The notes beneath the pieces were generated by a model. That model had not been told where the DNA came from and made no database searches. It saw nothing but the letters and a program-made list of their open reading frames with translations. The position numbers and the translations under genes are program-made. Below are positions 25,401 to 39,064 of a stretch of 64,000 nucleotides of DNA, one piece after another; positions within the stretch are counted from its first letter, which is position 1, and each line of letters opens with the position of its first letter. This DNA is from Kribbella sp. VKM Ac-2568 (GTDB taxonomy: Bacteria; Actinomycetota; Actinomycetes; Propionibacteriales; Kribbellaceae): assembly GCF_004345365.1 (NCBI RefSeq), contig NZ_SLVF01000011.1:186001-250000 (forward strand), read 5' to 3'.

Positions 25401-26702
25401 ATGGATGCTACGGCCGGCCTCGCCTTTCTTGATCAGACTGACCTTGATCATCTTGTGGCACGGCTTCGCAGGAACGGCCCTCAGTTCGATGCTGACCTCG
25501 CACTTCTCGAGCAGCCCCTCCAAGCCATTCGTGGCCGGATCGCATTCTTGATCAGTGATGATGCAATAGTCTTCATCTCTGGCATAGCACGCGGCTCGGT
25601 GGCCGGCGAGACCCGCCGGAATTTCAACCTTCACGCAATCACTCCGGTCGACCCACCTCTTCCCCTCGAACAGATCCGAGCTGGGTTGCTGACGACTCAA
25701 AGAGAAGCGACACATGCCCCAGGTGGCACGTTGACGATGAAGGCCACCAGACGCGCCATCGACATTCTGCTGATGGAGCGCCCTTCATTGGCTACCGTCA
25801 TCGACGAACTGGTCCCCAACGTCGAGCGGGTCAGTACCGACAGACGACTGGTCTCGCTGGCGCAACAGCGTGATGGCGTCGCCACCTTGCTCGATATCGC
25901 AGGCTTCAGGCCCGATCAGGCCATTGCGACAGACACAAGCTGGCTCGACGACAATAGGCACACGTTCCTTCCGTCAACTACCACGTCGGCCGCATTGGAA
26001 GATCCAATGGTCGAACACGATCGAGGGACCTTCGCCGGCTGGGCTCCAGAAAAATCCGACAAACTGGGTGTCAGTTCATTTACGAACGGCAATGGCAAGA
26101 ACCTGCACATCATGAACGTCAACCGATGGAGCATCGAGACCGCGTTGGGCGTGGATCTCATTTATTACCACGTCCAACGCCGAAGCTTCGCGCTCCTACA
26201 GTACAAGCGAATGACCGCGGAGGGCGGCGAATGGATTTACCGCCCGGACGAGCATTTCGCAAGGCAGCAGAAGCGCATGAGATCAGTTGACCAGGCATGC
26301 GCCGCCGGAGATCATGACGAGTTTAGACTGAACTATGCTCCGAGTTTCTTTAAGCTCTGCAAGCTTGAATCCCTCGACGTCGACAGCCTCTCGATGATTC
26401 CTGGTATGTATCTGACACGGGAGCAGGCCGACAACCATCTTGCTGGCCCCAATGCCCGCGGCCCGCGCAACGGCCTCTACTTCTCGTACGAGAACGTGAA
26501 GTCCTACCTCACTGGTTCCTTGTTCACCGACCTAGTGGCACATGGGCTCATCGGAACGAGTGGCGGATCGAGCAGACTACTCCGGGAAGCAATTGCTGCA
26601 AGTTTGAACCAGCGAGGTACGGCTGTGGTTGGAATACTGGACGACGAGCGTGGCCGTCGGCCGGGCTGGAAGGAAGATGCCGTCGCCATCCATCGCTCCT
26701 GA
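25401..26702 (+). CDS. Orphan protein with candidate PD-(D/E)xK nuclease motif
   Basis: 433 residues, no family recognised. Base composition is visibly lower in GC than the neighbours, with third positions often A or T, suggesting recent transfer. Around residues 247-269 the text reads E247...GVD252LIYY...LLQYK269, an E...D...QxK arrangement like Mrr-type PD-(D/E)xK nucleases, where Gln replaces the usual acid. Earlier it has ISDDAIVFISGIARG and NFNLHAITPVDPP. No signal peptide or membrane segment. It sits alone between folA and the TelA-PknG operon, as a single-gene cargo would. A defence or restriction role is conceivable but unproven. Confidence 0.7.
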   Translation: MDATAGLAFLDQTDLDHLVARLRRNGPQFDADLALLEQPLQAIRGRIAFLISDDAIVFISGIARGSVAGETRRNFNLHAITPVDPPLPLEQIRAGLLTTQREATHAPGGTLTMKATRRAIDILLMERPSLATVIDELVPNVERVSTDRRLVSLAQQRDGVATLLDIAGFRPDQAIATDTSWLDDNRHTFLPSTTTSAALEDPMVEHDRGTFAGWAPEKSDKLGVSSFTNGNGKNLHIMNVNRWSIETALGVDLIYYHVQRRSFALLQYKRMTAEGGEWIYRPDEHFARQQKRMRSVDQACAAGDHDEFRLNYAPSFFKLCKLESLDVDSLSMIPGMYLTREQADNHLAGPNARGPRNGLYFSYENVKSYLTGSLFTDLVAHGLIGTSGGSSRLLREAIAASLNQRGTAVVGILDDERGRRPGWKEDAVAIHRS

Positions 26703-26910: not shown

Positions 26911-28170
26911 ATGACCGAAGCTGACAACACGCAAGGCGCGGCGGCAGCACCGGCGGCGGCAGCCGCGCAGTCGCCGCTGCAGCCGCCGACGGCGACCGCA
27001 CCCGGCCTGATACTGACCGCGCCCGCACCGACACAGCCCGTCGCCGCGACAGCCGCCCCGAGCCTGGCGCCCGCCGTGGACCCCGCCGCGCTGCCCGGGC
27101 TGGACGCGAAGGTCGACACCTTCCTCACCTCGCTGATGACGGTCGAGCCGCGCTCGCCGGAGTTCGCGGCCAAGGCCACTGACGTCCGGAGCATGGGTGA
27201 CGTCGACATCCGGCATGCAGCGGAGAGCTCGAACCGGCTCCTCCAGCAGCCGGTCAAGGCGCTGCAGAGCGGCGGGCTCTCCGAGGGCTCGACGGTCGGC
27301 AAGACCCTGCTCGAGCTGCGCCGCACGGTCGAGAGCCTGGACCCGAAGGAAGCCACCGGGGCCAAGAAGCTGTTCGGGATGATCCCGTTCGGGGACAAGA
27401 TCGAGGACTACTTCCGCAAGTACCAGAGCGCCCAGACGCACCTCGAGGGCATCCTGCACGCGCTCCGCGACGGCCAGGACCAACTCGGCAAGGACAACGC
27501 CTCGCTGAACCTGGAGAAGCAGCAGCTCTGGGACGCGATGGGCCGGCTGAACCAGTACGTGTACGTCGCCGAGCGGCTGGACGCCCGGCTGGCGGCGACC
27601 ATCGCCGACCTCGAGGTGACCGATCCCGAGAAGGCCCGGGCGCTGCGCGACGACGTCATGTTCTACGTCCGGCAGAAGCACCAGGACCTGCTCACCCAGC
27701 TCGCCGTGTCGATCCAGAACTACCTGGCCATCGACATTGTGATCAAGAACAACATCGAGCTGATCAAGGGCGTCGACCGCGCCTCCACCACGACCGTCTC
27801 CGCCCTCCGTACGGCGGTCATCGTGGCGCAGGCACTCGGCAACCAGAAGCTGGTGCTCGACCAGATCACCGCGCTCAACACCACCACCAGCGGCATGATC
27901 GAGCGCACCTCGCAGATGCTGCGGGACAACTCGGTGGCGATCCAGCAGCAGGCGGCGTCGGCCTCGATCGGGCTGCCCCAGCTGCAGGCGGCGTTCGCGA
28001 ACATCTACGCCACCATGGACGCGATCGACACCTTCAAGGTGGAGGCGCTGGACAACATGGCCGCCACCATCGGCACCCTCGAGTCCGAGGTGACCAAGTC
28101 GCGGAGCTACCTGGACCGGGTCGCCCAGCAGGACCAGCGGGTGGTCCAGGGCACCCTGGACCTCGGCTGA
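26911..28170 (+). CDS. TelA-family toxic-anion resistance protein
   Basis: 419 residues from ATG 26911, with GGAGG upstream. An Ala/Pro-rich disordered tail of about 60 residues precedes the all-helical TelA domain (FLTSLMTVEPRSPEFAAKATDVRSMGD; ATGAKKLFGMIPFGDKIEDYFRKY; YVYVAERLDARLAATIADLEVTDPEKARALRDDV; IDIVIKNNIELIKGVDRAST). TelA proteins accompany tellurite resistance and Ter stress systems; their molecular action is not settled. First gene of the ten-gene signalling operon. Confidence 0.9.
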   Translation: MTEADNTQGAAAAPAAAAAQSPLQPPTATAPGLILTAPAPTQPVAATAAPSLAPAVDPAALPGLDAKVDTFLTSLMTVEPRSPEFAAKATDVRSMGDVDIRHAAESSNRLLQQPVKALQSGGLSEGSTVGKTLLELRRTVESLDPKEATGAKKLFGMIPFGDKIEDYFRKYQSAQTHLEGILHALRDGQDQLGKDNASLNLEKQQLWDAMGRLNQYVYVAERLDARLAATIADLEVTDPEKARALRDDVMFYVRQKHQDLLTQLAVSIQNYLAIDIVIKNNIELIKGVDRASTTTVSALRTAVIVAQALGNQKLVLDQITALNTTTSGMIERTSQMLRDNSVAIQQQAASASIGLPQLQAAFANIYATMDAIDTFKVEALDNMAATIGTLESEVTKSRSYLDRVAQQDQRVVQGTLDLG

Positions 28171-28222
28171 GCGCGGACCTCGGGACGGAACCGGCAGACG
28201 AGCGGGGGGACGGGAAAACTGG

Positions 28223-28828
28223 ATGGCGTTGGGTGATTTCTTCGCGCGGCTGACCGGCCGCAAGACGGAGCCCGAGCCTGCCCCGATCCCCCGCGCGCCG
28301 ACCAACGAGGACCTGCTGCAGGCGCTGGTCCGGGTCGAGCAACTGGTCGCGGACGGAGCGGTGCCGGCCGTGGTCGCGTCGCGCGTCGGCCGGGTGGTCC
28401 GGACCGTCCGGGAGACCATCCCGCGGCTCGGGAACCTCGGCGGCAGCGCCCAGGCGTACTCGGTGATGGCGACGGCGACGGACTACCTGCCGGAGGCGAT
28501 CGGCGGCTACCTGCGACTGCCGAGGCAGTGGGCGGACAGCCGGCCGGTGGACCGCGGCAAGACCTCGCTGATGATCCTGATCGACCAGTTGGACCTGCTG
28601 GGCTCGACGATGGACAAGGTGTTCGACGCGGTCAACCGGGCGGACGCGGCGGCCCTGATCGCACACGGCCGCTTCCTGCAGGAGAAGTTCGGCACCGGCT
28701 CGACCGGCGGCGGCCTCGCCCTCGGTCCGACCCCGTCGACACCAGCACCATCAACGCCACCTTCGACACCACCGCCCGACAGCGGGGCGGGGCCACTGCA
28801 ACCACCACCGGGACGAGGAGGAGCATGA
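28223..28828 (+). CDS. Unknown protein of the TelA-PknG operon
   Basis: 201 residues. The N-terminal FFARLTGRKTEPEPAP linker leads to a helical core (NEDLLQALVRVEQLVADGAVPAVVASRVGRVVRTVRETIPRL; TATDYLPEAIGGYLRLP; SLMILIDQLDLLGSTMDKVFDAVNRAD) and a Pro/Ser-rich tail. The core resembles helical proteins that accompany TelA, but I cannot name a family. The stop overlaps the AAA+ gene as ATGA. Likely an adaptor for TelA or the ATPase (inference). Confidence 0.65.
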   Translation: MALGDFFARLTGRKTEPEPAPIPRAPTNEDLLQALVRVEQLVADGAVPAVVASRVGRVVRTVRETIPRLGNLGGSAQAYSVMATATDYLPEAIGGYLRLPRQWADSRPVDRGKTSLMILIDQLDLLGSTMDKVFDAVNRADAAALIAHGRFLQEKFGTGSTGGGLALGPTPSTPAPSTPPSTPPPDSGAGPLQPPPGRGGA

Positions 28829-30222
28829 GCGGCGCGGGGGGTACTTCGCTGCAGGGCGCACTGTCGGCTCTGCTGGCTGTCGCCGCACGTGCAGAGGTTC
28901 CGGAGGACGTTGCCCGGGCGGAAGCACTCTCACTCGCGGCAGCCCTGGCCGAGTCAGCTCCTGGCGCACCAGCCGACTGGGCCTCGGTGACACCCGGCGC
29001 CGGCACACAAGACTTCTTCAACGCCGCCGTGCGCGGCCGGAGATGGCGGGGCGCGCCGACCGCAGTACTGACTGATCTGGTCGCGCAGGGATCGCCGGAG
29101 AAGATCCCGTACGCCGAGGCGCTGGCTGAGGTGGCATCGGCGGCCTGCAGCCTGGGTGAACCCACCATGCGCGTCATCGGCAACGCCTCGGTCGCAGCAG
29201 CGGCCCAGCTCCAAGCAGCAGGCGCTCGGCCAGTCCAGGCGACACCTACCCCAGCTACACCGGCGCCAGCCACACAGGCCAAGTCGATAGAAGCCAAGGC
29301 AGTAGAAGAGAAGGCTGCGGAGCCCGAGCGAACGGTAGAGGAACTCCTGGCCGAGCTGGACGACCTCACCGGCCTGGAGAAGGTCAAGCGCGAGGTACAC
29401 CGACAGGTCGCAGTACTGCGGGTCGAGAAGCTCCGGACCGAGGCAGGACTCAAGAGCCCGACCATCACCCGCCACCTGGTGTTCGTGGGCAATCCGGGCA
29501 CCGGCAAGACCACAGTGGCCCGGCTCGTCAGTGGCATCTACAAGGCGCTCGGCCTGCTCTCCAAGGGCCAGCTGATCGAGGTGGACCGCTCTGAGCTGGT
29601 CGCCGGCTACCTGGGGCAGACCGCCACCAAGACAGCCGAGGTGGTCGCCTCCGCGGCCGGCGGCGTGCTCTTCATCGACGAGGCCTACAGCCTGACCGCC
29701 GGTGATACCGGCGCCGACCAGTACGGGCGAGAGGCCGTCGACACGTTGGTCAAGGAGATGGAGGACCGGCGTGACGACCTGGTCGTGATCGTCGCCGGGT
29801 ATCCCGAGCCGATGGAGACCTTCATCGCCGCGAACCCAGGACTGGCCAGCAGGTTCCGGACCACCATCGGGTTCGAGGACTACACGGACGACGAGCTGAC
29901 GGACATCCTGACCGGGCTGGCCGAGGGCGCCGACTACGAGCTGACCGAGAAGGCGCTGGACCAGTTCAAGGTGATCCTGGCCTCGACGCCGCGGGACCGC
30001 TCGTTCGGCAACGGCCGCTTCGCCCGGAACATGCTCGAGGCCGCGATCGGCCGGCACGCCTGGCGACTTCGCGACGTGACGGCACCCACCACCGAGCAAC
30101 TGCGTCAGATCGTCCCTGAGGACCTGACCGACGAAGACCTGCACCCGGAGAAACCGTCCGGCACACCTGACAGCGAGGCCGCACCGAGCGAGAGCGAGCC
30201 CGAGCAAGGAGAAACGGCGTGA
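28825..30222 (+). CDS. AAA+ ATPase of the CbbX/SpoVK type
   Basis: 465 residues. The N-terminal about 130 residues are an operon-specific domain, followed by a Pro/Ala linker, then the AAA+ module: LDDLTGLEKVKREVHRQV, Walker A GNPGTGKTT (222-230), Walker B VLFIDEAYSL (281-290), VDTLVKEMEDRRDDLVVIVAGY and an arginine finger in NPGLASRFRTTIGF. Such ATPases remodel protein assemblies. In Ter-like loci they may act on TelA or vWA partners. Overlaps both neighbours (ATGA, GTGA). The acidic C terminus (DSEAAPSESEPEQ) is probably flexible. Confidence 0.9.
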   Translation: MSGAGGTSLQGALSALLAVAARAEVPEDVARAEALSLAAALAESAPGAPADWASVTPGAGTQDFFNAAVRGRRWRGAPTAVLTDLVAQGSPEKIPYAEALAEVASAACSLGEPTMRVIGNASVAAAAQLQAAGARPVQATPTPATPAPATQAKSIEAKAVEEKAAEPERTVEELLAELDDLTGLEKVKREVHRQVAVLRVEKLRTEAGLKSPTITRHLVFVGNPGTGKTTVARLVSGIYKALGLLSKGQLIEVDRSELVAGYLGQTATKTAEVVASAAGGVLFIDEAYSLTAGDTGADQYGREAVDTLVKEMEDRRDDLVVIVAGYPEPMETFIAANPGLASRFRTTIGFEDYTDDELTDILTGLAEGADYELTEKALDQFKVILASTPRDRSFGNGRFARNMLEAAIGRHAWRLRDVTAPTTEQLRQIVPEDLTDEDLHPEKPSGTPDSEAAPSESEPEQGETA

Positions 30223-31547
30223 CCCAGACAACCAGTGCGCCCCCGGCGACCTTGTCGCCGTCGGCTCCACAGGCCGCGCCCACCGGCCCACAGTCCTCGC
30301 CAGCTCCCACCAACTCCCGGCAGGGCGCCGTCCGCGCCTGGTTCGACGGTACGCCGGGCCGCATGCGGGCTCTCCTCATCCTGGCCGCGGTGGTCGCCGT
30401 GCTCTTCGGTGCAGCGGCGGCGCAGGGCTTCCGCCAGTCCGAGGGAGCACTGCAGCGGGCCGAGGAGAACACCGCGCAACTGGTCCGGATCCAGGCGATC
30501 CACACCAACCTGGTCAGCGCCAACGCCAACGCCACCAACGCCTTCCTGGTCGGTGGCCTCGAGCCGCCCGCGCAGCGGCAGCAATTCGTCGACTCGATGT
30601 CGACAGCCGCCAAGCTGATCTCCGAGGCAGCCACCGCGCAGCCCGCGGACCAGGAGGCCCTCGGCGCCCTCAACGCCACTTTGCTCACCTACCAGGGGTT
30701 GATCGAGCAGGCGCGGGCCAACAACCGACAGGGCCTGCCCATCGGTTCGCAGTACCTGAAGGATGCGAGCGCCAGCCTGCAGACCGACTCGCTGCCGCTG
30801 GTGAACGCACTGGTCGAGGCCAACGAGGAGCGCGTCGCCACCGAGTTCAACAACGTCGGCAACGGCAACGTGTGGCTGTACCTGGCCGGGCTGGCCACAC
30901 TGATCGTGCTCGGGCTGACGCTGTACTGGCTGGCCCGCAAGACCCACCGCTATCTGAACGTGCCGATCGCCGCAGCCGCTGTGCTGGTGCTGCTGACCAT
31001 GCTGGTCGGCGGTACGTCGCTGGCGAACGCCTCGGGCGCAGCCAAGGACACCCGGGGCGACGCGTACGCCGACACGCTGGCGCTCTCCCGCGCCCGCATC
31101 GCGGCGTACGACGCGAAGTCGAACGAGAGCCTGACCCTGATCGCCCGCGGCTCCGGCGCCGCCTTCGAGGAAGCCTGGAAGAAGTCCTCCGGCACGGTCG
31201 ACGACCAACTCGCCGTAGCCGCAGGCAGCGCCCCGGACCTGCAGAGCAAGTGGAGCGTCTATAAGAAGGTGCACACCGATATCCGGGAGAGCGATGACGA
31301 CGGTAACTGGGACAAGGCAGTGGGACAGGCCATCGGCACCAGCGACCAGACGTCCAACGTCGCGTTCAACGAATTCGACAAGCAGTCCAGCCAGAACTTG
31401 AGCGGCGCCAGCGACACGACCCGGGCCGAACTGAAGGACGCCCGCGACGGCCTCCCGCCGATCGCCTGGCTCGGCCTGCCGATCGGCATCGCCGCCGCCC
31501 TGCTCATCACCTGGGGCATGTCGCAGCGACTGGAGGAGTACCGATGA
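30219..31547 (+). CDS. glnX: GlnX-like four-helix membrane sensor
   Basis: 442 residues, GTG start overlapping the AAA+ stop. A disordered Pro-rich N-terminal tail precedes four hydrophobic helices near 48-70, 226-246, 256-276 and 417-436. This gives cytoplasmic ends and two large external helical loops of about 150 residues each. Length, topology and the position directly before glnH and near pknG match mycobacterial GlnX (439 residues), which passes the amino-acid signal from GlnH to PknG. The assignment rests on synteny, size and topology more than on sequence motifs. Confidence 0.8.
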   Translation: MTQTTSAPPATLSPSAPQAAPTGPQSSPAPTNSRQGAVRAWFDGTPGRMRALLILAAVVAVLFGAAAAQGFRQSEGALQRAEENTAQLVRIQAIHTNLVSANANATNAFLVGGLEPPAQRQQFVDSMSTAAKLISEAATAQPADQEALGALNATLLTYQGLIEQARANNRQGLPIGSQYLKDASASLQTDSLPLVNALVEANEERVATEFNNVGNGNVWLYLAGLATLIVLGLTLYWLARKTHRYLNVPIAAAAVLVLLTMLVGGTSLANASGAAKDTRGDAYADTLALSRARIAAYDAKSNESLTLIARGSGAAFEEAWKKSSGTVDDQLAVAAGSAPDLQSKWSVYKKVHTDIRESDDDGNWDKAVGQAIGTSDQTSNVAFNEFDKQSSQNLSGASDTTRAELKDARDGLPPIAWLGLPIGIAAALLITWGMSQRLEEYR

Positions 31548-32533
31548 ACAAGAAATCCCTGATCGCCGGCACCCTGGCCCTCCTCTTCGCCGCAACGGCC
31601 TGCGGCTCCAGCGCCTACGACGCGACGCCGCTGCCGGTGAAGGAGACTCCCCCGGCGGCCAAGCCGGCCGCTCCTGCCGTGCAGGACTGCACCAATGCCC
31701 TGCAGTCCTATCTCCCCGACGGTCCGCTGCCGGCACCGAACGCGATGCCCGCCGGCAGCACGATGGCGAAGATCGCGGCGCACGGCCGGCTCGTCGCCGG
31801 GGTATCGGCGGACAGCCTCAACCTCGGCTCGCGCAACCCGCTCACCGGCAAGATCGAGGGCTTCGACATCGACATGATCAACGCCGTCGCGGATGCCATC
31901 TTCGGCACGCCGGCGCCGGGTCAGCCGAGCAAGGTCGAGCTCCGGGTCATCTCCAGCCCGCAACGGCTGCCGGTGCTGAAGGCCGAGCGCAAGCCCGGAG
32001 CGATCGACATCGTTGCGCGGAACATTACGATCAACTGCGCCCGGTGGAAGGAGATCGCGTTCTCCGCCGAGTACTACCGGTCCGGCCAGAAGCTGCTGGT
32101 CCAGAGCGACATGACGACGGTCAAGAGCCTCGACGATCTGAGCGGCCAGAAGGTCTGCGCACCTGCCGGTTCGACCAGCCTGGACAACATGATCAAGGCG
32201 AATCCGAAGGTCGTGCCAGTCACCGCGGACACCGACGGCGGCTGCCTGGTGCTCTTCCAGCAGGGCAAGGTGGTCGGCATCACCGGTGACGACACCGTGC
32301 TCGCCGGCGAAGCCGCACAGGATCCGTACGCGAAGGTGATCCAGGCGCCGCCGTTCAGCCAGGAGCCGTACGGCCTGGGCATGAACAAGGACCAGGTCGA
32401 CTTCGTGAAGTTCGTGAACGGCGTGCTGGCGGAGATGAAGGCGGATGGTCGCTGGCAGATCTCATACAACAAATGGCTCCTTCCCGCACTCGGTAAGGCC
32501 AAGCCCCCTGCGCCTGTTTACGGCAGGAGCTGA
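31544..32533 (+). CDS. glnH: GlnH-like amino-acid binding lipoprotein
   Basis: 329 residues; lipoprotein signal with lipobox ATAC20. Solute-binding family 3 fold: RLVAGVSADSLNLGSRNPLTGKIEGFDIDMINAVADAIFG, the ligand-contacting DIVARNITINCARWKEIAFSAEYY, VKSLDDLSGQKVCAPAGSTS and the second-lobe SQEPYGLGMNKD. No ABC permease or ATPase is adjacent, so it serves as a sensor subunit rather than a transporter component, as GlnH does with GlnX and PknG in mycobacteria, where it senses Asp/Glu. Overlaps glnX (ATGA) and the next gene (TGATG). Confidence 0.9.
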   Translation: MNKKSLIAGTLALLFAATACGSSAYDATPLPVKETPPAAKPAAPAVQDCTNALQSYLPDGPLPAPNAMPAGSTMAKIAAHGRLVAGVSADSLNLGSRNPLTGKIEGFDIDMINAVADAIFGTPAPGQPSKVELRVISSPQRLPVLKAERKPGAIDIVARNITINCARWKEIAFSAEYYRSGQKLLVQSDMTTVKSLDDLSGQKVCAPAGSTSLDNMIKANPKVVPVTADTDGGCLVLFQQGKVVGITGDDTVLAGEAAQDPYAKVIQAPPFSQEPYGLGMNKDQVDFVKFVNGVLAEMKADGRWQISYNKWLLPALGKAKPPAPVYGRS

Positions 32534-33717
32534 TGACAGTAGGTACGCCGACGGCTTCTGCGCCGGCTCCACCGGGGAGGATCGGCAGCAGCATTCCTGC
32601 GAAGGATCTGCTGTCGTTCCTCGATGCGCTGGGGACGTGGCGGGATCGGCGGCGGGCGGAGCTGGACGAGCTCGACCAGGCTGCGCTGCAGTCCGAGGAC
32701 GCCGATGCGCTCAGTGCTGACGTGGTGCTCTCAATGGCGGTGTGGAAGGCGGTTTCGGACCGGTACGAGCTGATCCTGGTGACCTGGGACTCCGGCCGGG
32801 TCGGGCCGACCGAGACCGAGCGGATCTCCACCTTGATCTGGGGCGGTTTGGACACCGGCGGCGCCAGCGGGTCGCTCGCGGTTTCGTTGCCTGAGGCATG
32901 CACCTTGTCGGACGCGCTGGCCTCCACCCTGCGGGCAAAGCTCGCGCTGGAGCCCGGCGACGCCGATCTCGCCGCCCGGCTGCGCCAGCTGCGCGCCCAG
33001 GTGGAGCGGATCAACGACCTGGTCGCCCGCGAGCCGGCCGCGAGCCGCAACGAGGCGATCGCGGCGCATCACGACCTGGACCGCCGGGTCACAGACCTGA
33101 CCGAGCGGGCCAAGCGCGGTGCCGACGTGGGAGGCTTGATCGGTCCCCTGGAGATCGATGCCGCCCGCAACGAACGGGACCTGATCGTCGGCGGTGCCAC
33201 CCGGCGGGAGCGGGCTGCCGACGTCGCCCGGGCGCGCGCGGTCCGGACGGAGCTTGAGGCGCAAGGCCAGGCGGTTCGTGCCCTGGCCGACCGATGCGTC
33301 GCGGAAGTCACCCCGGCGCCACGGCTCGGCGTACCGGATGTCACCGCGCTCGGGCCGGTGCCGAACACGCCTGCCGAGCTGGAGAAGTACCTGACCCGCC
33401 TGGACGCCGTACGGCGTGCGCTGGGGCAGGCCCAGTCGGCGTACCGGGCGGCGCTGGAGCGGCGTGACGAGCTGGCCGGACGGCTGGACGCGTACCAGGT
33501 GAAGGCCGGCAGCGTCGCACGGACCAGTGGAACCACCGAAGACCTGGCAGAGCTCTACCGGCGCGGCCGCGAGGTGCTCGACTCCGAGCCAGTGAACCTG
33601 GTCCGGCTCGGCGCACTCGTGGCGGCGTACCAGACCTATCTGGACACCAGTCTGGCCACCGGGCCGAAGCCCCAGCAGGGGCACGAGTCCGGTCGCGCCA
33701 CAGGAGGGACGACATGA
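32533..33717 (+). CDS. Coiled-coil protein of unknown function in the PknG operon
   Basis: 394 residues, cytoplasmic, rich in Ala, Arg, Glu and Leu heptads: WRDRRRAELDELDQAALQSED, LRQLRAQVERINDLVARE, YLTRLDAVRRALGQAQSAYRAALERRDELAGRLDAYQ. The middle contains GPTETERISTLIWGGLDTGG. No known domain recognised. It is inserted between glnH and pknG, which are adjacent in mycobacteria, and overlaps both, so its product is probably stoichiometric with the kinase. Scaffold or substrate of PknG are reasonable guesses. Confidence 0.7.
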   Translation: MTVGTPTASAPAPPGRIGSSIPAKDLLSFLDALGTWRDRRRAELDELDQAALQSEDADALSADVVLSMAVWKAVSDRYELILVTWDSGRVGPTETERISTLIWGGLDTGGASGSLAVSLPEACTLSDALASTLRAKLALEPGDADLAARLRQLRAQVERINDLVAREPAASRNEAIAAHHDLDRRVTDLTERAKRGADVGGLIGPLEIDAARNERDLIVGGATRRERAADVARARAVRTELEAQGQAVRALADRCVAEVTPAPRLGVPDVTALGPVPNTPAELEKYLTRLDAVRRALGQAQSAYRAALERRDELAGRLDAYQVKAGSVARTSGTTEDLAELYRRGREVLDSEPVNLVRLGALVAAYQTYLDTSLATGPKPQQGHESGRATGGTT

Positions 33718-35981
33718 CGACCATCGCCTGCACCCAGCCGGGCTGCTCCGGCACGATCATGGACGGCTATTGCGACGTCTGCGGCTCCCCCGCGCCCGCT
33801 GGTGCCGTCAGCCCATCCGCTGTCGCCGGTGCTCCCTCTGTGGAGACTCCGGATGCCCCTGACCCGATCAGCACGGCTTCGACGGTCTCCCGCGCCTCCA
33901 ACCGGCTGGCCTCGACACCCCTCGGCTCCGCCCGCGCCCAGGCCGCCGGCTCGAAACTGACCCGACGTCTCGGTACTTCGTCCACCCGGCTGCGCGGGGC
34001 CCGGCTCGGCGCCGGTCTGACCCACGTGCCGCCGATCCCCGCGATCGACGCGAGCAAGGCGATCCTGGCGAACCCGATGGTCCCCGAGGACCGCCGGAAC
34101 TGCCCGAACTGCGGCAACCCGGTCGGCCGGTCCCGCGGCGACCAGCCGGGCCGGACCGAGGGCTTCTGCCCGAAGTGCCGCAGCCCGTTCTCGTTCTCGC
34201 CGAAGCTGAAGGACGGCGATCTGGTCGGCGGTCAGTACCTGGTCAGAGGTTGCCTGGCGCACGGTGGTTTCGGCTGGATCTACCTGGCCCAGGACAAGAA
34301 CGTGTCCAACCGCTGGGTGGTACTGAAGGGCCTGCTGAACTCCGAGGACCCGGACGCCGTCGCGGCCGCGATCGCCGAGCAGCAGTTCCTGGCCCGGGTC
34401 GAGCACCCGCTGATCGTGGAGATCTACAACTTCGTCACCCACGACGGCGCCGGCTACATCGTGATGGAGTACGTCGGCGGCACCTCGCTGAAGACCCTGC
34501 TCAAGCAGCGGATGGCGGCGAACCACAACCAGTACGACGCACTGCCGATCGACCAGGCGATCGCCTACCTACTCGAGATCATGCCCGCGTTCTCCTACCT
34601 GCACGACCTCGGCCTGGTCTACTGCGACTTCAAGCCGGACAACATCATCCAGGTCGGCGACGCGGTGAAGCTGATCGACCTGGGCGGCGTCCGCCGGATC
34701 GACGACTTGGACTCCGCGATCTACGGCACGGTCGGCTTCCAGGCTCCCGAGGTGGCCGAGGTCGGCCCGTCGGTTGCCTCCGACATCTACACCCTCGGCC
34801 GCACCCTGTGCGTGCTGGCGTTCGAGTTCCGCGGCTACCAGTCACGGTACGTCGGGTCGCTGCCGCCGATCTCGGAGGTCCCGCTCTTCCAGCAGTACGA
34901 CTCGGTCTACCGGCTGCTGCTGAAGGCCTGCGCGTCCGACCCGGCCGACCGCTTCGTCTCCGCGGACGAGTTCCGCGTCCAGCTCCTCGGCGTACTGCGT
35001 GAGGTGGTCGCGGAGAAGCAGGGCGTCAAGGCGGCCCAGCACTCCGCGTCGTCCCTGCTGTTCGGCAGCCCGGGTGACCTGGCCGCCGGGCTCGGCGACG
35101 CCGCGGCTCCTTGGCAGCGGTTGCCTTCGCTGGCGACGGACGACAGCGACAAGATGGCCGGCTGGCTGAAGACCGTGAGCGTGCCCGACCCTGCCCAGCG
35201 GCTCGAACTGCTGGTTAACGCGCCGGAGTCCTCCGCTCAGGTGCTGCTGGAGATCGCGCTGGCCTCGCTGGAGTCCGGGCAGTACGACATGGTCGACACG
35301 GCCGTCGCCGACCTGCTCGCCGAGGACCCGTGGGAGTGGCGGGCGGTCTGGATGTCCGGGCTGGTCGCGCTGGCCCGCAACGACGCGTCCACGGCCCAGT
35401 CGGCGTTCAACGCCGTCTACGGCCAGGTGCCGGGCGAACTGGCGCCCAAGCTCGCCCTCGCGGTCTCCTGTGAGATCAGCGGCGAGTACGACGTTGCCGA
35501 GGGCCTGTACCTCACCTGTGCACGTACTGACGCCAACTACATCGCACCGTCCGCGTTTGGGCTGGCGGCGATCCGCTCGAGCCGCGGCGACCTCGACGGC
35601 GCCGTGGCCGCCCTCGACCTGGTACCGCGAACCAGCGGCGCCTACGTGCGGGCTCGCCGCCAAAGAGCCGGACTGCTGGCAGGATCGGGGCGTGGGCTGG
35701 CGGCGCTGGCCGAGGCGATGAGCAATATCGAGGACCTGACCATCGACCCGGTCGACCGCGCCAACCTGTCGGCGAACGTGTTCCAGAACGCCCTCGACGA
35801 GGTGCGGAAGAGCGGGCCCGATCCCGCCCTGCGGATCGCCGGCCGGGAGGCGACCGAGCCGGAACTGCGGAACGGGCTGGAAGAGGCCTACCGTGAGCTG
35901 GCCGGGCAGGCCAACAGCCGGCAGGAACGGATCGCCCTGGTCGACCTGGCCAACGATGTTCGAGGATGGACGCTGCGATGA
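33714..35981 (+). CDS. pknG: PknG-type serine/threonine protein kinase
   Basis: 755 residues, close to mycobacterial PknG (750). Order: a zinc-ribbon-like tip (CSGTIMDGYCDVCG, 11-24), a Ser/Thr-rich linker, the rubredoxin-like redox/zinc module C130xxC133...C152xxC155, the kinase domain (about 173-440), then TPR-like helices (about 490-730). Catalytic residues: Gly loop AHGGFGW (182-188), K205 (VVLKG), D305 (YCDFKPDN), DLG 322-324, and GTVGFQAPE. In mycobacteria and corynebacteria PknG phosphorylates the FHA protein GarA/OdhI to release 2-oxoglutarate dehydrogenase. Here an FHA protein is encoded four genes downstream. No membrane segment. Confidence 0.94.
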   Translation: MTTIACTQPGCSGTIMDGYCDVCGSPAPAGAVSPSAVAGAPSVETPDAPDPISTASTVSRASNRLASTPLGSARAQAAGSKLTRRLGTSSTRLRGARLGAGLTHVPPIPAIDASKAILANPMVPEDRRNCPNCGNPVGRSRGDQPGRTEGFCPKCRSPFSFSPKLKDGDLVGGQYLVRGCLAHGGFGWIYLAQDKNVSNRWVVLKGLLNSEDPDAVAAAIAEQQFLARVEHPLIVEIYNFVTHDGAGYIVMEYVGGTSLKTLLKQRMAANHNQYDALPIDQAIAYLLEIMPAFSYLHDLGLVYCDFKPDNIIQVGDAVKLIDLGGVRRIDDLDSAIYGTVGFQAPEVAEVGPSVASDIYTLGRTLCVLAFEFRGYQSRYVGSLPPISEVPLFQQYDSVYRLLLKACASDPADRFVSADEFRVQLLGVLREVVAEKQGVKAAQHSASSLLFGSPGDLAAGLGDAAAPWQRLPSLATDDSDKMAGWLKTVSVPDPAQRLELLVNAPESSAQVLLEIALASLESGQYDMVDTAVADLLAEDPWEWRAVWMSGLVALARNDASTAQSAFNAVYGQVPGELAPKLALAVSCEISGEYDVAEGLYLTCARTDANYIAPSAFGLAAIRSSRGDLDGAVAALDLVPRTSGAYVRARRQRAGLLAGSGRGLAALAEAMSNIEDLTIDPVDRANLSANVFQNALDEVRKSGPDPALRIAGREATEPELRNGLEEAYRELAGQANSRQERIALVDLANDVRGWTLR

Positions 35982-37027
35982 CGAGTACGACCCAGACGGT
36001 CTGCCCCAGCTGTGGCGGGCCGATCTCCGACGCCGACCGCTTCTGCGAGGCGTGCGGGGCCGAGCTCACCCCGACCAGCCCCACCACGCCGGCGATCGAC
36101 ACCGACACCGAACCGACGATCGAGCTGAACCCCGGTGCCTCCGCGGTTCCGGGTCCCTGCCGCTCCTGCGGTGGGACGATCGGCGCGGACGGGTACTGCG
36201 AGACCTGTGGCACCAAGGCGACCAAGCCCCGGGACCACTTCAGCGAGCAGCCCGCTCCCTGGGTGGCCGGAGTGTGCGATCGCGGGATCCGGCACAGCCG
36301 CAACGAGGACGCCCTGGCGATCGCGGCCGATCCCGAGCCGGGCAGCAGGGCCTTGCTGGTGGTCTGTGACGGGGTCAGCTCGTCACTCGACTCCGACGTG
36401 GCCAGCCTGGCCGCCGCGCGAGCCGCCCGCGACGTACTGGTCGCCGGTCACGCGAAGGGCCTCGGTACAGAGTCCTCACGGAACAGTGCGGTGGTGGCGC
36501 GGATGAAGGCTGCCGCCGATGCCGCGAGCGACGCAGTACTGGAGAACACCAGTCCGGACAGCCCGAACCCGGCCTCGTGCACGTTCGTGGCGACTGTGCT
36601 CGAGGACGGCCTGCTGGTGGCCGGGGTCGTCGGCGACAGCCGCGCGTACTGGTTCCCGGACGAGGCCGAGGCCGTCGCCCTGACGGTGGATGACTCGTGG
36701 GCCGCCGAGTTGATCGCGACCGGCGTACCGCGACACGAGGCCGAGACCGGTCCGCAGGCCCACGCGATCACCCGGTGGCTGGGCAAGGACGCCCCGGACC
36801 ACACTCCCCGCACCACCTCGCTCAACGTCACCGGACCCGGGTGGCTGCTGGTCTGCTCGGACGGCCTGTGGAACTACTGCTCCGAGGCGGCACCACTGGC
36901 CGACCTGGTACGTCAGACCGCAGCGGCCAACGGCGGCGAGCCGCTGGCCACCTCGTCCGCGCTCGTCGACTGGGCGAATGCCCAGGGCGGCCAGGACAAC
37001 ATCACCGTCGCCCTGGCCCGTATCTAG
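35978..37027 (+). CDS. PP2C-family phosphatase with two zinc ribbons
   Basis: 349 residues, ATGA overlap with pknG. Two ribbons lead: CPSCG...CEACG (9-27) and CRSCG...CETCG (61-78). A Thr-rich linker between them (TDTEPTIELNPG) could be a phosphosite. The PP2C domain keeps metal and phosphate ligands: R105/NED (RHSRNEDA), D131-G132 (VVCDGVS), GDSRAYW, CSDGLWNY and GGQDNITV. It should dephosphorylate Ser/Thr sites set by the adjacent kinase. Position and ribbons matching those of PknG and the FHA protein suggest one complex. Confidence 0.92.
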   Translation: MTSTTQTVCPSCGGPISDADRFCEACGAELTPTSPTTPAIDTDTEPTIELNPGASAVPGPCRSCGGTIGADGYCETCGTKATKPRDHFSEQPAPWVAGVCDRGIRHSRNEDALAIAADPEPGSRALLVVCDGVSSSLDSDVASLAAARAARDVLVAGHAKGLGTESSRNSAVVARMKAAADAASDAVLENTSPDSPNPASCTFVATVLEDGLLVAGVVGDSRAYWFPDEAEAVALTVDDSWAAELIATGVPRHEAETGPQAHAITRWLGKDAPDHTPRTTSLNVTGPGWLLVCSDGLWNYCSEAAPLADLVRQTAAANGGEPLATSSALVDWANAQGGQDNITVALARI

Positions 37028-37073
37028 TTCTCACCGTTGCCCAGCCTGATGCTCGACCGAAAGGACGCCTGAG

Positions 37074-38351
37074 ATGGCCGAGTTCTCCGCCTCCGTGTAC
37101 CAGAACGAGTTCCTGCCCGACGGCGGCACCGACGTCCACGCGATCGTCACGGTGTCCTGCAGCGGAGCGGGCGCGGCCGGCCAGACCGGCAGCGGCGACG
37201 CGGGCGAGATCATCATCGTCGACACCTCCGGCTCGATGGGCGCCGACGGCGTCCGGGCCGCCGGCCAGGCCGCGCAGACCGCGCTCGACCAGATCCTCGA
37301 CGGGGTCTGGTTCGCGGTCATCTCCGGCAACGACCGGGCCAAGCTCGCGTTCCCGCCGTCGCCCGAGCCGGTGATGGTGCGGATGGACCAGTTCACCCGG
37401 CAGGCCGCCAAGGACGCGGTCGCGCGCTTCTACGCCGACGGCGGCACCGCGATGGGCACCTGGCTGCGGCTCGCCTCGCGGGTCTTCGCAACCGTGCCGT
37501 CGCTGACCCAGAAGCACGCGATCCTGCTCACCGACGGCGAGAACCAGCACGAGTCGCCCGAGGTGCTGACCGCCACGATCGAGGCCGTCACCGGGCAGTT
37601 CCAGTGCGACTGCCGCGGCGTCGGCGTCGCCTGGCAGGTCGACGAGGTACGCCGGATCGCGACCGCGCTGCTCGGCACGGTCGACATCATCCCGGCGCCG
37701 GACCAGCTCGCGGCCGAGTTCTCCAGCCTGATCCAGAAGGCGATGAGCAAGGGCGTCGCCACCGCGGACATGCGGGTGTGGGCGCCGCAGGGCGCCCAGG
37801 TGCTGTTCGTCCGCCAGGTCGCCCCGACCGTGGACGACCTGACCTCGCGCCGTACCGAGGTGAACGCCCTGACCGGCGCCTACCCGACCGGCTCCTGGGG
37901 TGACGAGTCCCGCGACTATCACGTCGCGATCCGCCTTGCCGCCAAGGGAATCGGGCAGGAGCAGCTCGCGGCCCGGGTCCAGCTCGCGATCGGCGACCAG
38001 GTCGTCGCGCAGGGCCTGGTGAAGGCGCTCTGGTCCGCGGACGAGGCGCTCACCACCCGGATCAGCCCGGAGGTCGCGCACTACACCGGCCAGACCGAGC
38101 TCGCCGACGCGATCCAGGAGGGCCTGGCGGCGAAGGCCGCGGGCGACACCGCCACCGCGACCACCAAGCTCGGCCGCGCCGTCCAGCTCGCCGCCCAGAC
38201 CGGCAACGAGGAGGCCACCACGCGGCTGCGCAAGGTGGTCGACATCGACGACCAGGACACCGGCACCGTGCGGCTCAAGCGCAGCGTCGAGAAGGCCGAC
38301 GAGATGGCGCTCGATACCGCGTCCACCAAGACCACCCGGGTGAAGAAATGA
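37074..38351 (+). CDS. vWA-domain (TerY-like) protein
   Basis: 425 residues, with AAAGGA upstream. The von Willebrand A domain has a complete MIDAS metal site: D50-T-S52-G-S54, T125 (GGTAMG) and D154 (LLTDGENQ). The C-terminal half is beta-rich then helical (LRKVVDIDDQDTGTVRLKRSVEKADEMALDTASTKTTRVKK). vWA proteins with PP2C and kinase partners form the TerY-P triad described for tellurium/stress systems. Overlaps the FHA gene by ATGA. The Thr-rich basic tail could be a kinase target (inference). Confidence 0.9.
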   Translation: MAEFSASVYQNEFLPDGGTDVHAIVTVSCSGAGAAGQTGSGDAGEIIIVDTSGSMGADGVRAAGQAAQTALDQILDGVWFAVISGNDRAKLAFPPSPEPVMVRMDQFTRQAAKDAVARFYADGGTAMGTWLRLASRVFATVPSLTQKHAILLTDGENQHESPEVLTATIEAVTGQFQCDCRGVGVAWQVDEVRRIATALLGTVDIIPAPDQLAAEFSSLIQKAMSKGVATADMRVWAPQGAQVLFVRQVAPTVDDLTSRRTEVNALTGAYPTGSWGDESRDYHVAIRLAAKGIGQEQLAARVQLAIGDQVVAQGLVKALWSADEALTTRISPEVAHYTGQTELADAIQEGLAAKAAGDTATATTKLGRAVQLAAQTGNEEATTRLRKVVDIDDQDTGTVRLKRSVEKADEMALDTASTKTTRVKK

Positions 38352-39064
38352 GCTCAGTGACGTGCCCGAGCGGGCACCCGTCCGTCTCCACCGACTACTG
38401 CGACGTCTGCGGCCTGCCGATCGGGGCGGCCGCGACCCCCGCGGCAGCGTCGGTACCGGCCCCGGCGACGGCAGCTCCGGCGCCCGCACCGGTGACCCAG
38501 GACTGCCCGAACTGCTCGGAGCCCGCCGCGCCGGACGCCTTGTTCTGCGAGAACTGCGGCTACGACTTCACCACCGGCACGATGCCGCGCCCGGCCTCGC
38601 CCCTCGACCTCGGTACGCCGCCCCCGGTGCCGCCCGCGCCCCAGCAGGTCGCGGACTGGGTGGTGGAGCGCTGGGTCGACCCCGACTGGTACGAGGTACA
38701 GCAGAGTGACGACCCGTGCCCGTCGCCGGGCCTTCCGGTGGTCATCCCGGTGACCGCGAAGAGCGTGCTGATCGGGCGTCCCTCCAAGAGCCGTGGCATC
38801 ACCCCGGAGATCGACTGTGGCGAGGACACCGGCGTGAGCCGCCGTCAGGCCCAGCTGACCACCGACGGCCAGCGCTGGTGGGTGGAAGACCTCCAGTCCT
38901 CCAACGGCACCTTCGTCGGCCCCTCCTCCGGCCCCCTCCCCGAAGACCCCATCCCCCCGGGCCAACGCCACGAACTGGACAGCGACGACCGCGTCTACGT
39001 AGGCGCCTGGACCCGCCTCGTAGTCCGCAAGGCAACCCCCGAAGAACAAGCCGGCCAGGCCTGA
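38348..39064 (+). CDS. FHA-domain protein with zinc ribbons
   Basis: 238 residues. Ribbon one is degenerate (CPSGH...CDVCG, 6-21), ribbon two complete (CPNC...CENCG, 53-71), then a Pro-rich linker and an FHA domain (about 135-232). FHA landmarks: SVLIGRPS, DTGVSRRQAQL (the usual SRxH histidine is Gln), SSNGTFVG. FHA domains read phosphothreonine. The likely partner is PknG or its targets, as OdhI/GarA is in relatives, although this protein lacks the short ETTS-type tail I would expect of OdhI. Last gene of the operon. Confidence 0.9.
   Translation: MSSVTCPSGHPSVSTDYCDVCGLPIGAAATPAAASVPAPATAAPAPAPVTQDCPNCSEPAAPDALFCENCGYDFTTGTMPRPASPLDLGTPPPVPPAPQQVADWVVERWVDPDWYEVQQSDDPCPSPGLPVVIPVTAKSVLIGRPSKSRGITPEIDCGEDTGVSRRQAQLTTDGQRWWVEDLQSSNGTFVGPSSGPLPEDPIPPGQRHELDSDDRVYVGAWTRLVVRKATPEEQAGQA

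Follow-up and report, generated by a model that had tools for sequence, protein, structure and literature searches.

A conserved ten-gene actinobacterial operon that links the genes glnX, glnH and pknG with telA and an AAA+ ATPase gene

The kinase PknG of Mycobacterium tuberculosis is well studied and a drug target, and it is known almost only for its control of GarA and the 2-oxoglutarate dehydrogenase (ODH). Here we describe a ten-gene operon in which pknG stands together with telA, located at 26911-39064 of a 64,000-nucleotide stretch of the soil actinobacterium Kribbella sp. VKM Ac-2568 (contig NZ_SLVF01000011.1, positions 186,001 to 250,000 of the forward strand); we call this whole stretch the window. 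In Mycobacterium and Corynebacterium, GlnH, GlnX and PknG form an established signalling chain (PMC6069109, PMC9769921, PMC8546545), and a 2018 mBio paper called the PknG operon widely conserved and named three genes in it (PMC6069109). The operon in the window shares with this system an orthologous lipoprotein, a transducer with four transmembrane (TM) helices and a PknG of rubredoxin, kinase and TPR domains, and the three genes are clustered, co-directional and in the same order; a gene that we call Y sits between glnH and pknG. The operon differs in that it adds seven conserved genes (telA, X, AAA, Y, pp2c, vwa and fha). As compared to the Mycobacteriales, its PknG has N-terminal zinc ribbons, its GlnH carries the replacements T162->N and W232->D, and the GarA of the genome is without the ETTS phosphosite.

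Ter stress systems, as reportedly surveyed by Anantharaman et al. in 2012, are said to combine a TerY-PP2C-kinase triad with TelA. The operon shares with them TelA and the grouping of vWA, PP2C and kinase (pknG, pp2c and vwa are contiguous); in contrast, the vWA protein of the operon carries VWA_3_C and the kinase is PknG. Since TerD has no match in the whole genome, we rejected a Ter system, and the description of a TerY-like or Ter-type core in an earlier note on this DNA, made from the sequence alone, is not supported. A vWA component and an AAA+ protein are likewise linked to the threonine-phosphorylation pathway of the type VI secretion system (T6SS). That pathway (TagQRST-PpkA-PppA-Fha) turns on a membrane machine by means of sensor proteins, a kinase, a PP2C and an FHA protein, and the same types of part, extracytoplasmic sensors, a Ser/Thr kinase, a PP2C phosphatase and an FHA protein, lie in one cluster (PMC10482370). 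However, the kinase of the operon belongs to a different family and none of the ten genes is a T6SS structural gene; we point to a likeness of logic and do not claim homology.

All ten genes that the earlier note had placed in this interval are present on the + strand in the order that it gave, with overlaps mostly of 1-16 bases (lengths in amino acids, aa):

telA, 26911-28170, + strand: 419 aa, TelA domain PF05816; the first gene of the operon
X, 28223-28828, + strand: 201 aa, helical protein with no match in Pfam or NCBIfam
AAA, 28825-30222, + strand: AAA and AAA_lid_6 domains; AAA+ ATPase of CbbX/SpoVK/EccA type
glnX, 30219-31547, + strand: four-TM membrane transducer, NCBIfam NF058618
glnH, 31544-32533, + strand: solute-binding lipoprotein, Pfam SBP_bac_3
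Y, 32533-33717, + strand: 394 aa, all-helical, family-specific protein
pknG, 33714-35981, + strand: N-terminal zinc ribbon, rubredoxin, Ser/Thr kinase and TPR domains (Pfam)
pp2c, 35966-37027, + strand: PP2C_2 phosphatase with an N-terminal double zinc ribbon
vwa, 37074-38351, + strand: vWA and VWA_3_C domains, 425 aa
fha, 38348-39064, + strand: FHA domain and two zinc ribbons, with the linker CGYDFTTGTMP

From telA to fha, the junctions measure +52, -4, -4, -4, -1, -4, -16, +46 and -4 bases, as one would expect if the genes formed a translationally coupled operon. We used 26911 as the start of telA and 28825 as that of AAA, as the mechanical open reading frame starts of both are too early; the AAA start is an ATG that overlaps the stop of X (ATGA). 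The unit that the earlier note had put together from GlnX-GlnH-PknG, PP2C, vWA, FHA, AAA+ and TelA is conserved, and the open-access literature yielded no description of PknG with TelA, of the extended operon, or of TelA, vWA, PP2C and TerY together; subscription papers, including the 2012 Ter survey, lay outside this search, and we regard the novelty of the operon as provisional.

Conservation of the ten-gene order

We scanned genome contigs for PknG, which gave 80 loci, added 20 further regions from genomes of the phylum, and iterated a profile for each gene over the surveyed PknG loci. The identical ten-gene order is present in 34 loci, the window included, and many more loci are interrupted by contig ends. 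The exact order is found in Kribbella, in Ornithinibacter, Lapillicoccus, Intrasporangium and Terrabacter (Intrasporangiaceae), in Luteipulveratus (Dermacoccaceae), in a metagenome-assembled genome of the Kineosporiaceae, in Sediminihabitans (Cellulomonadaceae) and in Microlunatus (Propionibacteriaceae). The genes are laid out likewise in Rathayibacter (Microbacteriaceae), where some of the vwa or fha matches are weak or missing. A separate genome sample anchored on TelA contributed eight additional loci that read telA-X-AAA-glnX-glnH-Y-pknG. Together with the 34 identical loci, these place the order far beyond chance, and the outcome of a check that had been set beforehand, whether the order is restricted to this strain, is that it is not.

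To follow the inheritance of TelA and PknG, we used 297 genomes of the class, 28 of them from the order of the window. Within that order, TelA is present in eight genomes (G000, G333, G348, G397, G416, G426, G482 and G558), and the TPR domain of PknG is present in exactly the same eight. In one genus-level group (g200), 6 of 15 genomes have both and the other 9 have neither. A naive hypergeometric test, which makes no correction for phylogeny, gives 3e-7 across the order and 2e-4 in the genus-level group. In the rest of the class there is no such tie between TelA and PknG, and many genomes carry both unlinked.

The gene content is layered by lineage. The sampled genomes of Mycobacteriales type (f5) have glnX-glnH-pknG; those of Streptomyces type (f4) have the seven genes glnX-glnH-Y-pknG-pp2c-vwa-fha and no telA-X-AAA; in Actinomadura, glnX-glnH comes after Y-pknG-pp2c-vwa-fha. 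The labels f4 and f5 were matched to these lineages by the size and content of the genomes. In the clade to which the window belongs, the telA-X-AAA block comes in addition. All telA-linked PknG proteins fall into one clade of 69 rows (100% in the Shimodaira-Hasegawa-like approximate likelihood ratio test, SH-aLRT); several of the telA-negative rows within it are short contigs, and two (L056 and L054) look like true absences. That the ten genes are an accidental or strain-specific neighbourhood of unrelated genes has next to no probability in our judgement, being contradicted by the conserved order, the co-occurrence of TelA and PknG, and the single clades of both proteins; conservation across loci led us to reject both chance co-location and a strain-specific order.

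One record named Streptomyces sp. SID13031 is probably a misnamed Kribbella: it groups within the Kribbella clade, has the ten-gene operon as well and shows 89% identity in PknG.

The proteins of the operon

GlnX of the window scores 341.5 bits against the NF058618 cut-off of 250 and does not reach that of the narrower equivalog NF041460. Its four hydrophobic helices, with two extracytoplasmic segments each some 150 residues long, resemble the layout of Corynebacterium glutamicum GlnX (PMC9769921). The closest solved structure to GlnH is M. tuberculosis GlnH (6h2t/6h1u, E 1.9e-50), and we mapped the binding pocket from the published M. tuberculosis contacts, using that protein's residue numbering (PMC6069109). 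GlnH of the window retains the residues that contact the backbone of the amino acid (S164->T, R169 and D250), as do nearly all GlnH proteins compared. Of the side-chain contacts, R147 is kept while positions 162 and 232 are replaced as given above, and so two of the three Asp/Glu contacts of the M. tuberculosis protein are lost. At position 232, the Mycobacteriales have W, the Streptomyces type has Q, Actinomadura has Y and most Micrococcales have H. The operons of Micropruina, Propioniferax, Austwickia and Auraticoccus keep glnX and have no glnH; the best GlnH match elsewhere in the genomes of such lineages has 31-36% identity, as compared to 48-56% for true orthologues (Rathayibacter, Microlunatus). 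The stimulus has thus probably changed across lineages, and because of the pocket changes and the losses of GlnH, sensing of Asp/Glu is not to be assumed here. The idea that external amino acids are the signal, which the earlier note had put forward while leaving room for another ligand, is consistent with the retained backbone residues; however, it is made uncertain by the side-chain pocket and by the operons without GlnH. In Enemella (L040 and L053), where GlnH is still in the operon, R147, R169 and D250 are replaced in the alignment, which suggests a GlnH that may no longer bind amino acids.

Y is modelled by AlphaFold as long helical hairpins with a predicted local distance difference test (pLDDT) score of 92; it has no match in Pfam or NCBIfam and no PDB match with E<=0.001 in a fold search. 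Among the surveyed loci, it is present in operons of Streptomyces and Actinomadura type and absent from the Mycobacteriales.

PknG of the window matches M. tuberculosis PknG (2pzi, E 3e-138), with its catalytic motifs and its rubredoxin, kinase and TPR domains all present. The PP2C protein has the metal-binding motifs RHSRNED, DG, GDSR and SDGLW, and the vWA protein has a metal-ion-dependent adhesion site (MIDAS) of DTSGS, GGTAM and TDG; the kinase motifs, the PP2C metal site and the MIDAS are intact in the window and most relatives. N-terminal zinc ribbons are common to PknG, PP2C and FHA. In PknG, these ribbons are found in 78 of 86 sequences from groups that have the operon PP2C or FHA, as compared to none of 8 from the Mycobacteriales, where these partners are absent. 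Three Streptomyces-type genomes (G023, G193 and G128; loci L101, L102 and L103) encode a second PknG-like kinase, which begins with a zinc ribbon and adjoins a vWA protein with C-terminal zinc ribbons. L101 and L103 also have, adjacent to these, a protein that starts as a trypsin-like peptidase (Trypsin_2 in L101); this looks like a separate kinase-vWA-protease system.

The FHA protein carries the linker CGYDFTTGTMP, or a near variant, in most relatives, and we propose the TTG threonines just before the FHA domain as the probable target of PknG, on the model of the ETTS motif in GarA. The comparison of this gene to GarA/OdhI in the earlier note was misleading, and we rejected that identity: the protein scores 21.7 bits against the equivalog cut-off of 200 bits, and the GarA orthologue of the genome is on another contig (G000:C2:114202-114720, L104/L148), at 65% identity, beside a MerR-type regulator. 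This orthologue carries a zinc ribbon and no ETTS. Across the GarA loci compared (L149-L172), many proteins from outside the Mycobacteriales have the N-terminal ribbon and no ETTS, whereas those of the Mycobacteriales have ETTS and no ribbon. In PknG-less genomes, the GarA ribbon is absent in G214, G139 and G544 and kept in G361 and G508.

The telA gene of the operon is the sole TelA in the genome, and its PF05816 domain scores 310.6 bits against a cut-off of 30. The TelA proteins of the operons form one clade (100/100), which also includes telA-AAA loci without PknG in G139 and G544 and a telA-X locus in G335; one weak, truncated match (L049) has a very long branch and is unplaced in the tree. 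X has a strongly conserved YLPEA..YLRLPR.WAD motif, and its AlphaFold model is helical (pLDDT 77), with no PDB match at E<=0.001 in a fold search. An assignment of X to XpaC/Halogen_Hydrol (PF10112) was rejected, as PF10112 has no match in the genome at E<=1 and none in the Pfam scans of X. The X profile finds a gene adjoining telA in many actinobacterial telA loci that have no PknG beside them, so X is a general actinobacterial partner of TelA and not an orphan. In these other loci, TelA adjoins an X homologue as in the operon; unlike in the operon, no PknG, GlnX, PP2C, vWA or FHA gene lies alongside. The nearest models to AAA are SpoVK, EccA and CbbX, all scoring under their equivalog cut-offs, and Walker A (GNPGTGKT) and Walker B are present in 53 of 53 relatives. 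Since X-TelA pairs occur without PknG nearby and telA and AAA are kept together in two PknG-less genomes, TelA-X-AAA behaves as a module.

In those two genomes (G139 and G544; L110 and L111), an operon-type AAA gene directly follows telA with no X, and the pairs are apparently remnants of a decayed operon.

A candidate phosphoswitch and its rivals

We propose that the operon encodes a Ser/Thr phosphorylation circuit complete in itself, which extends the GlnX-GlnH-PknG system and acts on the AAA+ ATPase, TelA and X, a reading that we hold to be about evenly balanced between right and wrong. A ligand would bind the lipoprotein GlnH, where it is present, and thereby change GlnX, which would activate PknG through the TPR domain; this part is transferred by homology from the work in Mycobacterium and Corynebacterium. 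PknG would then engage the operon FHA protein, aided by the zinc ribbons of PknG, PP2C and FHA, and phosphorylate it, probably at the conserved TTG threonines, and the adjacent PP2C would reset the phosphoswitch. Through the vWA protein and Y, which would serve as adaptors, the phosphoswitch would control the CbbX-type AAA+ ATPase, which would remodel the TelA-X pair, a putative protective scaffold associated with the membrane or envelope. The FHA protein as substrate, the adaptor roles and TelA-X-AAA as an envelope-directed output are what we infer by analogy, the T6SS threonine-phosphorylation pathway being the nearest well-characterised parallel, and TelA may reasonably be taken as the output of the circuit. 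We place the action at the envelope because a TelA homologue contributes to resistance to nisin and cell-wall antibiotics in Listeria, where its loss sensitises cells to envelope-acting agents (PMC11765107).

The evidence that points to this phosphoswitch is the exact order in 34 loci, the presence of TelA and PknG in the same 8 of 28 genomes, the layering by lineage, the single clades, the distribution of the zinc ribbons, the FHA linker, the GarA proteins without ETTS and the TelA-X-AAA module. Several points weigh on the other side. The model is built on genes, and co-location shows shared regulation, not the order of signalling. The phosphopeptide-binding residues of FHA vary in some lineages, and no known fold can be recognised in X or Y; to our knowledge, the function of TelA is poorly understood everywhere. 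GarA proteins outside the Mycobacteriales also have Thr-rich motifs along with their zinc ribbons, and PknG could act mainly on GarA.

This last point leads to an enlarged PknG-GarA/ODH circuit, in which PknG phosphorylates GarA, PP2C reverses this, and TelA-X-AAA is an accessory for membrane or amino-acid homeostasis. PknG-GarA is an established pathway (PMC6069109), the genome has a well-conserved GarA orthologue, and GarA outside the Mycobacteriales shares the zinc ribbon with the operon PknG, PP2C and FHA proteins; however, the GarA found here has no ETTS, the operon has an FHA protein of its own, GarA is kept in the PknG-less genomes G361, G508 and G214, and telA and pknG are found in exactly the same genomes of the order, and we consider this circuit unlikely, though a real prospect. 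An envelope-damage or antimicrobial-peptide response is a plausible alternative, if in our view slightly more apt to be wrong than right. Here GlnX, with or without GlnH, would sense envelope perturbation and TelA-X-AAA would repair or protect the membrane, which overlaps with the phosphoswitch on the output and differs from it on the stimulus. The Listeria resistance data (PMC11765107) fit such a response, as does the patchy presence within a genus, which is consistent with niche-dependent protection; the loss of GlnH from several lineages that keep GlnX, and the altered pocket of GlnH, leave room for a stimulus other than Asp/Glu. Against this, R169, S/T164 and D250 persist in nearly all GlnH proteins, and because of these retained backbone-binding residues most of them still look like amino-acid sensors. 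The patchy distribution, the similarity of the kinase domain to PD-T4-6 and other defence kinases, and the related Streptomyces-type locus that links a PknG-like kinase, a trypsin-like peptidase and a vWA protein might instead suggest a phage-defence or conflict system of kinase/vWA type. We find this very improbable: the PADLOC matches are limited to domains of generic type (kinase, phosphatase and AAA), none of the ten genes was seen to encode a nuclease or toxin effector, and the order is stable over many genera and not mobile.

Returning to the phosphoswitch, a wider version of it is that in many Actinobacteria outside the Mycobacteriales PknG serves mainly as the kinase for a dedicated switch resembling the T6SS pathway, one that drives an envelope-remodelling machine of AAA+, TelA and X, and that the mycobacterial PknG-GarA pathway is a reduced or redirected form; we offer this tentatively and think it doubtful. 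The data suggest that PknG controls more than central metabolism in operon-bearing bacteria, and a widespread ten-gene version with phosphatase, FHA, vWA and TelA/AAA+ proteins implies further PknG substrates and outputs. TelA, a family of unclear function, gains a defined set of partners, an ATPase and a signalling input open to test in soil bacteria that are not pathogens, and the genus-level group in which 6 of 15 genomes have the operon and 9 do not offers natural comparisons.

Edges and neighbouring genes

A scan for promoters and terminators gave nothing clearly above chance and is uninformative for this organism. We set the edges of the operon by the conservation of its neighbours. The source genome is 8.9 Mb and its nearest relatives are Kribbella. 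Upstream, between a folA-like gene and telA, a gene at 25401-26702 encodes a 433-aa protein with no Pfam match and is absent from every other surveyed locus. Downstream, an epoxide hydrolase gene is beside the operon in only a few Kribbella. As neither neighbour is conserved, we rejected both as members of the operon.

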